Positions 26,401-32,147 of a stretch of 64,000 bases of DNA are shown here, in pieces. Source of the stretch: an uncultured Verrucomicrobiota bacterium (lineage in GTDB: Bacteria > Verrucomicrobiota > Verrucomicrobiia > Limisphaerales > UBA9464); NCBI GenBank assembly GCA_903922605.1, contig CAIXUG010000061.1, forward strand, positions 62,001 to 126,000, read 5' to 3'. Position 1 is the first letter of the stretch; the number at the start of each line of letters is the position of its first letter. The notes under the pieces are model-generated. The model was not told the DNA's origin. It saw only the letters and a program-made list of their open reading frames with translations, and did not search any database. Made by a program: the position numbers and the translations under genes.

Positions 26401-27249
26401 CTATTTCCGCGTAGCTTGCTGGATCTGTTCCAACTGCCGTAACACATCGCCCGTCAGCCGGTCCATCTTTTCGTGGAGCTGCACGATCTCCAGCTCGGCC
26501 TTCAGGTTCACGTCGTACTCGATGTCGGAACGCACGCGGTCCTTGGCCGCCTGCCGATTCTGGCTCAGCAGGACGAACACCGAGAGGAAAATGGCCTCCA
26601 GCGACACCGCCAGCGTCAGAAAACCAAACGGAAACGGATCGAATTGCGGAATCCCGGGCAGCTTCACGGAATTGATGACCACCCACACCGTGAACCAGAC
26701 CACGTGGATCAGCAGGAACGTGATGCTGCCGGCAAATTCGGCGATCCAGTCCGCCGCCTTCTGCACGCGGCTGCGCTTGTCCTCCGTCTCCTCGTTGACG
26801 TTCCGCGTCGCGGTCTGCCGCAGCCGCTCGGAACTGGCCCGCAACCGGCGTCCCATGGCGGTGAGCAGATCCATCGCCGCCTGCGGCCTCAGCATGAGGA
26901 ATTTCTCCAGATGGCTGCGATTCAGCCGCAGCGTCTCGGTATCCTGGGTGGCGACCACCGATGCACTGCGCGCCCCGTGATCCAGCAGGGACAGCTCCCC
27001 GATGAATCCGCCGCCGGTGACCACTTCGAGCACGATGCGCTCGCCGGTGTGGTTCTTGAAGAACACCTCCACCTCACCCGAACGGATCAGGTACAGCGAA
27101 TCACCCGGATCGCTGATCTGGAAAATGGTCTGCCCCGCCCGAAAGCGGACCAGTTCCAACTGGTCGGCCAGCTCGGCCCGCTCCTGATCGTCAAGGAACT
27201 GGAACAGAGAGACTTCCTTCAACAGTTCGGCATCCGGTTTCACGTCCAA
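26401..27249 (-). CDS. Cyclic-nucleotide-binding domain / DUF1003 membrane protein
   Basis: 282 residues. A cNMP-binding beta-barrel (about 10-130) shows RAGQTIFQISDPGDSLYLIR and GGGFIGELSLLDHGARSASV, with FIGELSLL and R-S-A at the phosphate-binding cassette. A DUF1003 region follows (about 165-250): FAGSITFLLIHVVWFTVWVV, FDPFPFGFLTLAVSLEAIF and SQNRQAAKDR, giving two transmembrane helices. A C-terminal coiled-coil-like helix ends the protein. Ligand unknown; likely a cyclic-nucleotide-responsive membrane protein. It converges on ilvC. Confidence 0.9.
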   Translation of the reverse strand: MDVKPDAELLKEVSLFQFLDDQERAELADQLELVRFRAGQTIFQISDPGDSLYLIRSGEVEVFFKNHTGERIVLEVVTGGGFIGELSLLDHGARSASVVATQDTETLRLNRSHLEKFLMLRPQAAMDLLTAMGRRLRASSERLRQTATRNVNEETEDKRSRVQKAADWIAEFAGSITFLLIHVVWFTVWVVINSVKLPGIPQFDPFPFGFLTLAVSLEAIFLSVFVLLSQNRQAAKDRVRSDIEYDVNLKAELEIVQLHEKMDRLTGDVLRQLEQIQQATRK

Positions 27250-27363
27250 AAATTAGCGCGGTCCGCACCGCTTCGGAAGCCGTTTCCCTCGAAGACCGCA
27301 AAATCGCAGAAAATTCAGTCGCCCGCGAAATGCGGCGGTGACGACACCTGGCGCAAGCGCGGG

Positions 27364-28041
27364 TCATTCGGCCAGGGCACGCTTGTAGTCTGGCGCCGGG
27401 TCCCCATAGCCGGCACGGCGACGGCCCAGGGCCGGAGCGATGATATCCCGGCGAACATCGAGCTCGGACTGCCAGAGCTCGCGCCAAAGGCGGACGGTGT
27501 TCTCAGGATAGCGATTGGGCGAATCCTCATCGAACGCCGGGCGAAACAGATCCACCGCGTTCTGCAGTTCGTGAAGAAACTCCTCCTTCGTCGGGTGGCC
27601 CGTCACGTCAATGACGCGTCGGAAGGCGAGGAAGTCTTTCGGATCAAGCCGGTCCAGCTTGCCAATCAGGATGTCGAGCGGATGCGGTATCGTGACGGCG
27701 ACATTCCCGAGCTGAACCGTCCGCGCACGACCGCGCATCTGCGGGGTGGTGCGAAAACTGAGTTGGAAGCCGGGTTCGAGGTAGAAGTCAGCCTGCCCTT
27801 TGGCCAGACCAAGACCTTGGATCCGCTCGCTAAAATCCTCATCATCCTCGGCGAAGAAATCCACATCGGCACTGGTCCAAGCGCGGTTCATCGTAAGTTG
27901 GAGCGGCGCGGATCCATAAAGGACGAAATGGAAGTGTCCCGCAGCGGGGAGCGCGGAGAAGAAACGGCGCAGCAATTGGCCGGCAGGGGTCTCCCAGTCC
28001 ACCTCACCGCGCCACCAGTCCGAGGTTTTGATCGAACTCAT
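27364..28041 (-). CDS. Nucleotidyltransferase of the AbiEii / MenT-like superfamily
   Basis: 225 residues. The nucleotidyltransferase core is FVLYGSAPLQL (GS motif) followed by SADVDFF (DxD metal site) about 17 residues later, and the later IPHPLDILIGKLDRLDPKDF resembles the Lys/Asp segment of AbiEii-type proteins. Such enzymes are the toxic half of type IV toxin-antitoxin or abortive-infection pairs, usually preceded by a small antitoxin gene; a candidate overlaps its start. Substrate and toxic activity are inference. Confidence 0.75.
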   Translation of the reverse strand: MSSIKTSDWWRGEVDWETPAGQLLRRFFSALPAAGHFHFVLYGSAPLQLTMNRAWTSADVDFFAEDDEDFSERIQGLGLAKGQADFYLEPGFQLSFRTTPQMRGRARTVQLGNVAVTIPHPLDILIGKLDRLDPKDFLAFRRVIDVTGHPTKEEFLHELQNAVDLFRPAFDEDSPNRYPENTVRLWRELWQSELDVRRDIIAPALGRRRAGYGDPAPDYKRALAE

Positions 28042-28252
28042 GTTTACGATTTCCTATGCGGCGACCTTGATAACGGATGGAATAAACTCCCTGTTGAATC
28101 AGCCGGTTGGTGACTTCGGGATCGCGGGCCAGCGTCTGCGCGATGCGACGATCGCGCGCGGTCATGCGTCCGGCCTCCTTGCGGAAAAGGATGCGGGCGG
28201 CGAGACGGGATTTCCGCCACGGCCGGTCGGTGTCATCACCGGGATGTCGCAT
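28004..28252 (-). CDS. Candidate small upstream partner gene (hypothetical)
   Basis: 82 residues, rich in Arg, with the helix-like stretch TARDRRIAQTLARDPEVTNR. No family recognised. It overlaps the nucleotidyltransferase start by 38 bp on the same strand, as expected for a coupled antitoxin-toxin pair. An internal ATG would give a 53-residue form starting MTARDRR. It could still be a chance frame. Confidence 0.4.
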   Translation of the reverse strand: MRHPGDDTDRPWRKSRLAARILFRKEAGRMTARDRRIAQTLARDPEVTNRLIQQGVYSIRYQGRRIGNRKHEFDQNLGLVAR

Positions 28253-28297: not shown

Positions 28298-30994
28298 CTA
28301 TTGGGACGAAAACAAATCCAGCTGCGGCGGCGGCGCGATTTCCTTCAGCTTCTCCCGCTCCGCCCGGTGCTTCCGATTTTGAGCTTTGAGCTTTGAGCTT
28401 TGAGCCTCCCCTCCCTCTCCGCCCAACACGTGCTGCAGATTCAGCTCCGCCTCTTCCAGCACGCGCAGAATCTCCTTCGCGCGGTCAATCACGGGCTTGG
28501 GCACGCCAGCCAGACGGGCCACCTGGATACCATGGCTCTTGTCAGTCGCTCCCGGCTGCACCTTGCGCAGGAAGATGAGCTGGTCGTTCCACTCGCGCAC
28601 GGCCACGTGATAATTGCGCACCCGCGCCAAGGCGGGGGTCCTGGGTCGCGCCTCCGCGACGGGCTCGCCCTCAGCCGACTCGGGACCTTGGACCTTGGAC
28701 CCGGGACTCGTCCCCAGTTCGGTCAGCTCATGATAGTGGGTTGCGAACAAGGTCTTGGCGCCAACCTGGTGATGCAGGTGCTCGACGATGCTCCACGCCA
28801 GACTCAGCCCGTCGAAGGTACTCGTGCCCCGCCCGATCTCATCGAGGATCACCAGGCTGCGGCGCGTGGCGTTATTGAGAATGTTCGCCGCCTCGCTCAT
28901 CTCGACCATGAAGGTGCTCTGGCCGCGCGCGAGATCGTCGCTCGCCCCGATGCGCGTGAAGATGCGGTCGAGCAGGTCCACGCGTGCCGTGGCGGCGGGC
29001 AGACAGCTCCCCGTATGCGCCAGCAGCGCCAGCAGCGCGACCTGCCGAATGTAGGTGCTCTTGCCTGCCATGTTGGGCCCGGTGATCAGCGCGATCTGCT
29101 CATGGACAAGATCCAGGACGGTGTCGTTGGGCACGAACCGCTCGTCCGTCATCACCTGCTCCAGCACGGGATGCCGGCCATCACGGAAATTCAGCACGCC
29201 CTCGTCGCCGACTTCGGGACAGGTCCAATCGTGCAGGCGGGCGACCTCGGCAAACGCGGCCAGCACATCGAGCTGGGCCAGCGCCCCGGCGGTCTGTTGG
29301 ATGGGACGCAGCTGCGCCAGCACTTCCTCGCGCACCTTCAGGAAGAGATCGTACTCCAGCTTCGTCGCCCGCTCCTCGGCCCCGAGGATCTTCGACTCCA
29401 TCGCCTTCAGCTCCTGCGTGATGAAGCGTTCACCGTTGGCCACGGTCTGCTTGCGGACGTAATCACCCGGCACTTTCGCGAGGTTGGCCTTGGTCACCTC
29501 GATGTAATAGCCGAACACGGAGTTGAACCCGACCTTGAGCGAGGAAATGCCAGTGCGCGCGATTTCATCCTGCTGAAGCTTGGCCAGCCAGTCCTTGCCG
29601 CCGCGTGAGGCGGCGCGCAGTTCGTCCAGCTCCGGGCTATAGCCGTCGCGGATGAGTCCGCCTTCCTTCACGGCCAGCGGCGGTTCGTCGGCAATGGCGC
29701 GGGCCAGCAGCTCCACCAGCGCCGGCAGTTCACAGAGCTGGCCGAACAGCTCCTCGTGCAACGAAGGCAGCGCGGGCTCGACCTCGTCCGGCTCGGAAGC
29801 GATCAGCTCATCGCCCTCCGCCGCGAGCACCGGCCCCGGCACTTCTGTTCCCGTGGCACGCAGAGTTGGTATCTGCTCCAACGCCAGCCGCAGCGCGATG
29901 AGATCCCGGGCATTGCCGGAGCCAAGGCTGAGCCGCGCCAGGGTGCGTTCGAGATCGCGCACCTCCGTGAGGCGCGCACGAAACGACTCCAGCGCGGCGG
30001 GATTCGCGAGCCAGGATGCGATCGCATCCTGCCGGCGGCGGATCGGCCCGACCGCCGCGAGTGGCTGGGTGAGCCAGTCGCGCAGGCGACGCGCCCCCAT
30101 CGGTGTGACCGTGCGGTTCAGCGCGGTGAAGAGCGTATTATTGCGCGCGGCGTCGCGCTGCAGCGGCTCCAGGATCTCCAGGTTCCGCAGCGACGTGGCA
30201 TCCAGCACCAGATAATCCGCAACCTGGTAGAAAACCAGCCGGGTGAGGTGCGCGAGATCACGCCGCAGATGCTGCGTGAGATAGTGCAGCACGGCACCGG
30301 CGGCACCGATGGCCGCGCTCCGCCCGCGAAGGCCGTAGCCATCCAACGAGGCGACCTTGAAGTGCTCCCGCAACGTGAACACCGCCGTCTCGGGCTGAAA
30401 CGTCCAGTCGTCGTAGGCGTTGAATTGCGTGCGGACACCCGCGAGCTGCTCCGCCAGTGCGCGCGCCTCGGCCGGCAGGATCAGTTCGGCGGGACGCAGA
30501 CGGTCCAGCTCGGCGAGCACTCCCTTGAACTCATCGAGTTCCGTCACGCGGAAATCGCCCGTGGTCAGATCCACCACCGCAAGTCCGAAGGTCTTCCCCT
30601 GGGCAAACACGGACGCGAGGAAGTTGTTCCGCTCGGCCTGCAGCAGGCGTTCGTCGAAGTGCGTGCCCGGCGAGAGGATCGCGGTGACCTCACGCGTCAC
30701 GAGCTTGCCGGGCTTCGCCTCCTCCGCCTGATCGCAGATCGCAACCTTGCGGCCGTGCTTGAGCAGGCGGCTGATGTAGCCATTGGCCGCGTGATGTGGC
30801 AGGCCGCACATGGGGATACCGTTGCGCTTGGTGAGCGCGAGGTTGATGAGCTGCGAGCCGATGACGGCATCCTCGAAAAACATCTCGTAGAAATCGCCGA
30901 GGCGGAACAGCAGCAGCGCATCCTTCGGCAACTCCGACTTGATGCGGCGGTACTGCGCCATCATCGGCGTGAGTTGAGGTTCGGCGGCGGCCAT
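28298..30994 (-). CDS. mutS: DNA mismatch repair ATPase MutS
   Basis: 898 residues. N-terminal mismatch-recognition domain begins LTPMMAQYRRIKSE and contains FRLGDFYEMFFEDA (the Phe and Glu that contact the mispair). Connector, lever and clamp follow, and the C-terminal ATPase has Walker A GPNMAGKSTYIRQ, SFMVEMSEAANIL and Walker B LVILDEIGRGTSTFDG. All motifs are intact. Two features are unusual: a low-complexity insert of about 30 residues after YHELTELGTSPGS, and a C-terminal stretch with QSSKLKAQ. Both are encoded by 7-bp tandem repeats. A single gene; no mutL is seen. Confidence 0.97.
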   Translation of the reverse strand: MAAAEPQLTPMMAQYRRIKSELPKDALLLFRLGDFYEMFFEDAVIGSQLINLALTKRNGIPMCGLPHHAANGYISRLLKHGRKVAICDQAEEAKPGKLVTREVTAILSPGTHFDERLLQAERNNFLASVFAQGKTFGLAVVDLTTGDFRVTELDEFKGVLAELDRLRPAELILPAEARALAEQLAGVRTQFNAYDDWTFQPETAVFTLREHFKVASLDGYGLRGRSAAIGAAGAVLHYLTQHLRRDLAHLTRLVFYQVADYLVLDATSLRNLEILEPLQRDAARNNTLFTALNRTVTPMGARRLRDWLTQPLAAVGPIRRRQDAIASWLANPAALESFRARLTEVRDLERTLARLSLGSGNARDLIALRLALEQIPTLRATGTEVPGPVLAAEGDELIASEPDEVEPALPSLHEELFGQLCELPALVELLARAIADEPPLAVKEGGLIRDGYSPELDELRAASRGGKDWLAKLQQDEIARTGISSLKVGFNSVFGYYIEVTKANLAKVPGDYVRKQTVANGERFITQELKAMESKILGAEERATKLEYDLFLKVREEVLAQLRPIQQTAGALAQLDVLAAFAEVARLHDWTCPEVGDEGVLNFRDGRHPVLEQVMTDERFVPNDTVLDLVHEQIALITGPNMAGKSTYIRQVALLALLAHTGSCLPAATARVDLLDRIFTRIGASDDLARGQSTFMVEMSEAANILNNATRRSLVILDEIGRGTSTFDGLSLAWSIVEHLHHQVGAKTLFATHYHELTELGTSPGSKVQGPESAEGEPVAEARPRTPALARVRNYHVAVREWNDQLIFLRKVQPGATDKSHGIQVARLAGVPKPVIDRAKEILRVLEEAELNLQHVLGGEGGEAQSSKLKAQNRKHRAEREKLKEIAPPPQLDLFSSQ
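28378..28405. repeat. Four exact 7-bp tandem repeats inside mutS
   Basis: TTTGAGC is repeated four times without interruption (28378-28405). Read on the minus strand it encodes the QSSKLKAQ region near the MutS C-terminus. Confidence 0.9.
28685..28701. repeat. 7-bp tandem repeat inside mutS (second site)
   Basis: ACCTTGG is repeated 2.4 times. It lies within the low-complexity MutS insert (SPGSKVQGPES), flanked by other GC-rich sequence. Confidence 0.7.
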
Positions 30995-31197
30995 GCGGGC
31001 CTCACACTAGAAAGCCGGAACGCGGACGCAAAGCCCGCAAACGGTCGGCGGTCATGGCGGGTGGAAAAAAAATTGCGGGCAAAAAAGCGAAAACACTTTT
31101 CGTCAAGTCACTCTGCCATTACAAACTCGTGAAAACTTCAATTGATTCCCAATATGCCTCAACGGCCGAACAGCACTCTGTTCGCCCCAGCACCCGA

Positions 31198-31207
31198 GGG
31201 GAGGTGA
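31198..31207 (+). promoter_or_regulatory. Strong Shine-Dalgarno for the H1-like peptide
   Basis: GGGGAGGTGA ends 6 nt before the ATG at 31214. It matches the 16S anti-SD over eight bases, the best SD noticed in the window, and most other genes here lack one. It decides the start of the very short gene downstream. Confidence 0.85.
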
Positions 31208-31213
31208 CACGAC

Positions 31214-31291
31214 ATGGCAGCCAAGAAAGCTCCTGCAAAAAAACCCGCCGCGAAACCCGCCGCAAAGAAACCCGCCGCAAAGAAAAAGTAA
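31214..31291 (+). CDS. 25-residue lysine/alanine/proline-rich histone H1-like peptide
   Basis: Sequence character: MAAKKAPAKKPAAK followed by two more KPAAKK units and a stop, so ten of 25 residues are Lys and the rest are Ala and Pro apart from the initiator Met. It resembles the C-terminal tails of eukaryotic H1 and of bacterial H1-like proteins such as Hc1/AlgP, which bind DNA. A near-perfect Shine-Dalgarno and a private intrinsic terminator 17 bp after the stop show it is a real, separately transcribed and probably highly expressed gene. Nucleoid binding is inference. It has no globular domain. Confidence 0.8.
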   Translation: MAAKKAPAKKPAAKPAAKKPAAKKK

Positions 31292-31308
31292 TTTGCGCCT
31301 AACCCATC

Positions 31309-31355
31309 GGGGCGAAAGCACACCGCACTTCGCGGGTCGCTTTCGCCCCTTTCAC
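31309..31355 (+). terminator. Rho-independent terminator of the H1-like peptide gene
   Basis: Perfect 11-bp stem (ggggcgaaagc 31309-31319, gctttcgcccc 31339-31349) with a 19-nt loop, followed by a T-rich tail (tttcactttt). Confidence 0.85.
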
Positions 31356-31421
31356 TTTTCCGCCCGCTGGGCGCATTTCTTCGCTGCCAACGCGCCCCGT
31401 TCCGGGCCAAATCCCCCGCAC

Positions 31422-32147
31422 ATGGCTCGTCTGGTCTTCGACATTGAAACATCCGCCCTCGGTCTGGAGCACTTCGACGAGGGGCAGCAGGAGTACCTCT
31501 TCCGCGAGGCGGGCCGGCTGCCCGACCCCGACGCGCAGGCGAAGAAACGCGCCGAGATTTCGCAGATGTTCAACCTGTGGCCCTTCACCGCGCAGGTCGT
31601 GTGCATCGCTATGGTCAACGCCGACACCGGCCGCGGCCAGGTGCTCTACCAGTCCGACGACTTTGAGGAGGAACCCGAGGAAGCGGAGGCCGCTCCGGTC
31701 GAGTTTGCGCCCCAGCCCGACGAGGGTGAGCTGCTCACCGCCTTCTGGGATGTCGCCAAGCGCTACGACAGCATCGTGACCTTCAACGGCCGCGGCTTCG
31801 ACGTGCCGTTCCTCTACCTGCGCTCAGCGCTGCTTAACGTGCCCATCTCGCGCAAGGACTGGCTGGGCTACCGCTACAACACCGAGCCGCACTGCGACCT
31901 CGCCGAGCAGTTCTCCTTTTACAACGTGAGCGGCAAAGAGGGCGCGGCGCGGAAGTTCAACCTCGATTTCTACTGCAAGGCCTTCGGCATCCCCTCGCCC
32001 AAGGCGCAGGGCGTGACCGGCCTTGATGTAAACGACCTGCTCGCCGAAGGCCGTCATCGCGAGATCGCCGAGTACTGCCTGCGGGACGTCGAGGCGACGG
32101 TGGAGCTGTACAAGATCTGGAAGGAACGGCTGGCAGGGATCAAGTGA
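31422..32147 (+). CDS. Predicted 3'-5' exonuclease (DnaQ-like, PolB-type)
   Basis: 241 residues from the ATG at 31422. The DEDD exonuclease pattern is visible: LVFDIETSALG (motif I, D-x-E), YDSIVTFNGRGFDVPFLYLR (motif II, N-G-x-x-FD) and HREIAEYCLRDVEATVELYK (motif III, YCxxDV). Related to the RNase_H_2 / PolB exonuclease group acting on DNA or RNA ends. An acidic insert (FEEEPEEAEA) sits between motifs I and II. Single gene. Confidence 0.9.
   Translation: MARLVFDIETSALGLEHFDEGQQEYLFREAGRLPDPDAQAKKRAEISQMFNLWPFTAQVVCIAMVNADTGRGQVLYQSDDFEEEPEEAEAAPVEFAPQPDEGELLTAFWDVAKRYDSIVTFNGRGFDVPFLYLRSALLNVPISRKDWLGYRYNTEPHCDLAEQFSFYNVSGKEGAARKFNLDFYCKAFGIPSPKAQGVTGLDVNDLLAEGRHREIAEYCLRDVEATVELYKIWKERLAGIK

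Follow-up and report, generated by a model that had tools for sequence, protein, structure and literature searches.

The window, a 64,000-nucleotide stretch of DNA from an uncultured Verrucomicrobiota bacterium of the order Limisphaerales, contains a complete, tiny and apparently independent gene with a histone-H1-like composition, which is conserved across much of the order and whose product may act by binding nucleic acid. The gene occupies positions 31214-31291 of the plus strand as an ORF running from ATG to TAA and encodes the 25-aa peptide MAAKKAPAKKPAAKPAAKKPAAKKK (net charge +10), in which the Met is followed by ten Lys, ten Ala and four Pro residues and nothing else. The coordinates, strand and composition given for it by an earlier sequence-only reading are exact for this copy, which is the sole ORF in the window with at least 15 aa and at least 75% K/A/R/P. 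The source genome comprises 5.3 Mb in 90 contigs.

The ORF is preceded by its own Shine-Dalgarno (SD) sequence, GGAGGTGA at 31200-31207 (plus strand), as had been proposed. Its duplex energy of -16.9 kcal/mol surpasses those of all 41 other ORFs in the window that reach 180 aa (best -13.2, median -5.6 kcal/mol), in a comparison that used a manually entered anti-SD sequence and allowed each of the other ORFs the best among its first start codons. As a word, GGAGGTGA is not rare, occurring four times in the window vs. 2.36 expected. From the SD alone we infer that the peptide may be abundantly translated. The 5' leader contains a small perfect hairpin (CGAACAG-CACT-CTGTTCG) at 31167-31184 of the plus strand, and across 53 related units the leaders fold modestly better than shuffled sequences, with z below -1 in 20 units and above +1 in four. 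A k-mer search of the upstream regions returned chiefly A-rich words, plus TTACAAA, which in the window lies at 31119-31125 (plus strand) and may be a weak -10-like promoter element. Its occurrence in 10 of 50 upstream regions, some of them closely related, compares with a top 7-mer count of 4-8 in 20 shuffles and is suggestive only. A simple promoter near the gene was dropped as a candidate, since a consensus scan of positions 30600-31900 gave no sigma-70 match.

Downstream of the stop codon, a terminator-like element was found at 31309-31359 (plus strand), consisting of a hairpin at 31309-31349 (-33.5 kcal/mol, z -5.45, equalled by none of 200 shuffles) and a T-run at 31350-31359 that is interrupted (TTTCACTTTT). 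The intrinsic terminator postulated by the sequence-only reading is borne out in its strong hairpin, but its T-run is broken and the terminator consensus scan omitted it, reporting in its place a small site on the plus strand at 31361-31373, one of three sites in total vs. 2.1 expected in shuffles. A clean hairpin with a T-run is found at the same place in several relatives. We scored this element in 54 of 55 collected units, one being left out because its downstream DNA was too short. For a hairpin followed by a T-run, an energy of -15 kcal/mol or lower was reached by 46 of the 54 units vs. 21 of 162 mononucleotide shuffles, and one of -10 kcal/mol or lower by 49 units vs. 62 shuffles, under a loose scoring in which the best structure of some units, including that of the window, spans beyond the obvious hairpin. 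Eight units miss the -15 kcal/mol threshold, including four that gave no hairpin with a T-run and one that scored -6.6.

Within the order, an SD-led Lys/Ala/Pro-rich peptide unit was identified in 43 of 78 genomes, the window genome included, a count confirmed by a script that took a single locus from each genome. By hand count from the table, the carriers belong to 22 of the 32 families and 26 of the 40 genera. They comprise seven of eight genomes of genus g1 and 15 of 39 other genomes of the same family (G011, G013, G014, G019, G020, G023, G025, G027, G029, G030, G032, G033, G035, G037 and G039); the remaining families of the order contribute 21 carriers among 31 genomes. The total was obtained by reading loci and scanning for SD-led K/A/R/P-rich ORFs and should be taken as a floor, loci being detected through a start pattern, the neighbourhood of an exonuclease gene and a sub-cut-off search with the HC2 profile (PF07382). 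The start pattern matched in 51 of the 78 genomes, vs. nine for its reversed control, and a DNA search of the same 78, among which G000 is counted, gave matches in 20. The unit was not found in 35 genomes; in three of these, all from genus g3, there is a related gene of another kind. A lack of conservation in close relatives, which the sequence-only reading had named as evidence that would count against it, is thus not what we observed.

Some genomes depart from the pattern of one unit each. G048 has two copies with differing peptides (L144 and L182), and G035 has two copies with an identical peptide near contig ends (L172 and L173), which may be an assembly effect. Two further loci, L015 and L019, gave short DNA matches to lysine/alanine codons without a K/A/P-rich ORF of at least 15 aa.

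The 55 collected units include two near-duplicates, leaving 53 distinct ones that form a graded series of peptides from 12 to 85 aa (median 23). Their pooled composition is 44% K, 39% A, 8% P and 4% V, K+A+P accounting for 91%. Net charge ranges from +7 to +44, and the number of lysines tracks length (r 0.93). Most peptides begin with MAAKK... and end with ...KKK, so that the ends and the composition are kept, whereas the sequence is not. The earlier statement that the peptide contains only Lys, Ala and Pro holds for the window copy, whereas V, T, G, S and a little R also occur in the peptides of relatives. Since 37 of the 53 distinct units are shorter than 30 aa, a length commonly dropped by gene finders, this gene, conserved across much of the order, is probably missing from annotations.

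The pattern of substitutions is that of a protein-coding gene. Start codons are ATG in 45 and GTG in 10 of the 55 units, and stop codons are TAA in 28, TAG in 26 and TGA in one. Over seven anchored codons in the 53 distinct units, diversity amounts to 1.17, 0.79 and 3.24 at the first, second and third codon positions, respectively. Synonymous changes account for 62% of the codon differences between pairs, vs. 18% for random substitutions. Ten chosen closer pairs differ by 37 synonymous and 22 non-synonymous codons; the opposite trend was seen in L167/L169 (two vs. six) and L054/L082 (one vs. two). It should be noted that the units were filtered by K/A/R/P content and an upstream GGTGA, which inflates the synonymous share and partly builds in the SD conservation, so that the synonymous bias and the conserved start, SD and stop are all biased upward by this selection. 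Less biased evidence for a coding gene comes from the intervals between mutS and the exonuclease gene, which were chosen by position, and the protein-coding status is supported by these as well.

In the window, the peptide gene sits between mutS (28298-30994, minus strand) and a PolB-like 3'-5' exonuclease gene (31422-32147, plus strand), both assigned by Pfam. A search for the unit between these two genes in relatives had been suggested together with the original reading, and we looked for it in the best 80 of 291 exonuclease relatives, which were kept as loci. In 18 of these, mutS and the exonuclease gene are adjacent, and 17 have the unit between them; the lone exception, L112, has a gap of 121 bases. 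Altogether the unit occurs in 31 of these best 80 loci, next to mutS in 17 of them and with no mutS in the DNA covered in the other 14, and is absent from 49, nine of which have less than 400 bases of upstream DNA. Wherever mutS is present in the loci of the 55 units, it is divergent to the unit, with a start-to-start distance of 162-227 bases, except for 304 bases in L031 and 462 in L185. The exonuclease gene follows on the same strand 67-243 bases past the unit stop, with exceptions of 468 bases in L034 and 1944 in L097, where another ORF lies between them.

This neighbourhood is not fixed. In L154, L182 and L185, mutS but no exonuclease gene is found beside the unit. Nine loci from genus g7 have neither gene within the 3-6 kb covered around the unit. 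The neighbours in g7 include a chorismate mutase/prephenate dehydratase gene near the units of L166 and L174, a NusB/RsmB-type rRNA methyltransferase gene near those of L170 and L172, and a DHDPS-family gene upstream of the unit in L169. As the unit is kept while its neighbours change, it is apparently an independent gene acting in trans rather than a leader. 

Several features of these regions were recorded in passing. In L182 (contig 115 of G048), beside the second unit copy of that genome, a frame at 3-1571 on the minus strand has a MutS-like start (MutS_I and part of MutS_II) that runs into DUF5682; this could be a fused gene, a disrupted mutS or a joining error of the assembly. Some contigs carrying the exonuclease gene (L072, L076, L109, L128 and others) are titled as Akkermansia muciniphila, Proteobacteria or Klebsiella pneumoniae, titles that look mislabelled. 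In the window itself, a 546-aa ORF at 26473-28113 (plus strand) has no Pfam match at E 0.001.

Among 387 genomes of the phylum, the start pattern matched in 161 and a second, looser pattern in 130, and reversed-pattern controls matched too. The 50 first-pattern loci that were read, a few of them at the same place, mostly represent unrelated proteins or short chance ORFs. Nonetheless, SD-led K/A-rich units were found outside the order in G302 (28 aa), G418 (80 aa), G136 (45 aa), G392 (81 aa) and G401 (32 aa), a floor that covers first-pattern loci only; from such sequences, shared descent and convergence cannot be told apart. Two other genomes, G426 (L237) and G303 (L246), have SD-led short ORFs containing cysteine, MAAKKNCGCGCGCSGTRKSKK... 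and MATKKKAVKKCTKGKCGSKKKK, respectively, which are perhaps metal-binding relatives or else unrelated.

Genus g3 has no unit beside the exonuclease gene. In its members G016, G042 and G044, the HC2 search revealed a different K/A/P gene of 63-69 aa with its own SD, AGGAG, starting with MPATEKQQAAKK.... On reading the loci, it was placed at 1495-1704 on the minus strand of L313 and at similar places in L306 and L312. In the flank that was read, that of G016 (L313), it comes directly after a P-II gene. A start pattern for this variant matched in 13 of 19 g3 genomes, and the same upstream letters are shared by G016, G042, G044 and G465.

Most likely, the peptide is disordered and acts in trans as a polycation that attaches to nucleic acid through its charge, similar to a free tail of histone H1 or AlgP. 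The observations on which this builds are the existence of the gene, its conserved SD, a 3' hairpin in most units, independence of neighbours and the coding pattern. An independent mini-gene would thereby yield a short, disordered, strongly basic peptide acting as a counter-ion of nucleic acid, like an H1, AlgP or Hc2 tail without a folded domain. Both the disorder and the binding of DNA or RNA are predicted from composition and from the in vitro DNA binding of KPAA-repeat peptides, as described in excerpts of PMC9239181. A sequence-specific role is unlikely for peptides whose length varies seven-fold, and the ligand cannot be deduced from composition alone. A nucleoid role is plausible, the peptide possibly compacting or neutralising the nucleoid beside HU. 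Two HU-type genes, both lacking K/A/P tails, are present in the host genome, so that the peptide would not be the sole nucleoid protein.

Should the peptide bind nucleic acid, it would show that a gene may consist of nothing but a histone-like tail, with selection acting only on charge and composition, and the units would provide a natural series of tail lengths from 12 to 85 residues. A bolder proposal, which we put forward tentatively and consider rather doubtful, is that stand-alone "histone tails" form a family widespread in the Verrucomicrobiota, strongly translated from as few as 12 codons (MAAKKKKGKKKK), supplying the nucleoid with a free polycation selected for its composition and not its sequence, and possibly representing a relic that preceded the domain-borne tails of Hc2 and AlgP. 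If true, these would be among the smallest dedicated genes for chromosome-binding proteins and largely invisible to standard annotation.

Other readings of the unit have to be weighed against that of a nucleic acid-binding polycation. Association with the ribosome or rRNA in place of the nucleoid would suit the very strong SD, the tiny size and the richness in lysine, other very short basic ribosomal proteins being known, and the RsmB-type methyltransferase gene near the g7 units of L170 and L172 points the same way. We consider it unlikely, given that peptides of 12-85 aa with only their two ends alike do not resemble a site-specific ribosomal protein, that 35 of the 78 genomes gave no unit, and that the few flanking genes named by Pfam include no ribosomal protein gene. 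Binding of the peptide to polyphosphate or a different anionic polymer is quite unlikely, although it may be imagined from the localisation of AlgP to polyphosphate granules (excerpts of PMC9239181). PPK1 matches were found in 67 of the 78 genomes, but seven of the 43 carriers (G003, G027, G039, G047, G070, G071 and G073) have none in a search that covered PPK1 alone, the completeness of G070, G071 and G047 being 96%, 95% and 90%, respectively, which argues mildly against a purely polyphosphate-related role.

The combination of a short ORF, a hairpin and a same-strand gene mostly at the short distance given above could represent a cis-acting leader or attenuator of the exonuclease gene; however, the linkage is not fixed, since the unit occurs without this gene in the three loci that retain mutS and in the nine g7 loci and is separated from it by another ORF in L097, so this candidate was rejected and appears highly improbable. 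A functional small RNA with an incidental peptide would account for the compactness of the unit and its strong 3' hairpin, but is very unlikely in view of the third-position variation and the retention of K/A/P codons through indels, both read with the caveat of selection by composition, and of the lack of an Rfam match above the cut-off. The best Rfam candidate, SNORD16, was discarded at 21.6 bits vs. a cut-off of 45 (E 0.21). Finally, low complexity and the use of metagenome-assembled data might suggest a chance ORF without function, which is hardly credible for an SD-led peptide that is conserved at both syntenic and non-syntenic places and is the single ORF of its kind in the window.

The reading as a nucleic acid-binding polycation can be set against the known families of similar composition. 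The window peptide has no match to a Pfam or NCBIfam family. For HC2, none of the 78 genomes reaches the cut-off of 40 bits, and matches at E 0.1 or better were obtained in 14; the highest score, 38.8 bits, comes from the variant gene of genus g3 in G042, and units proper reach at best 29.5 bits (G007). The sub-cut-off matches to HC2 or H1-like models come from some of the longer members. When ten peptides were compared with this profile directly, the best score was 25.1 bits (L236), below the cut-off, and the window peptide gave none. The profile also matches below its cut-off in two of 14 control genomes, which indicates that composition explains part of the resemblance. Against the same ten peptides, NF038053 (cut-off 80 bits) scored at best 19.7 and NF038052 (cut-off 135 bits) at best 14.9. 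The former, a Burkholderia-type histone H1-like protein, shows a weak compositional match to L236, L171 and L034 and none to the window peptide. The nine other peptides also gave sub-cut-off matches to compositional models, such as extensin, DUF4816, the valine-tRNA ligase tail and the Rv3852 family. Judged by these cut-offs, the peptide gene belongs neither to HC2 nor to the H1-like families of NCBIfam. In literature searches covering open-licence papers, no title or opening lines of an abstract described such a gene.

The likenesses that remain are those of composition and architecture. Chlamydiae and Verrucomicrobia share a superphylum, and lysine-rich repeats and length variation are common to chlamydial Hc2 and the present units, which were selected partly by composition. 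According to the abstract of PMC2848022, the Hc2 of C. trachomatis has lysine-rich repeats whose number determines its size of 165-237 aa, compared with 12-85 aa for the units, which fall outside this range. The C-terminal domain of the eukaryotic linker histone H1 is likewise a K/A/P-rich disordered tail, contacting linker DNA (excerpts of PMC9239181); the peptide is far shorter and has no globular domain, and its complexity is too low for common descent to be tested. Among the systems compared, AlgP (AlgR3) and PhaF of Pseudomonas share with the units KPAA-type repeats in varying number and an H1-tail-like composition, and in AlgP this C-terminal tail is predicted to be disordered, with a repeat number that changes in clinical isolates (PMC9239181, as excerpted). 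In AlgP, a putative N-terminal domain of helical structure precedes the tail (same excerpts), whereas the ORFs described here open directly with the K/A tail, which is the entire protein.
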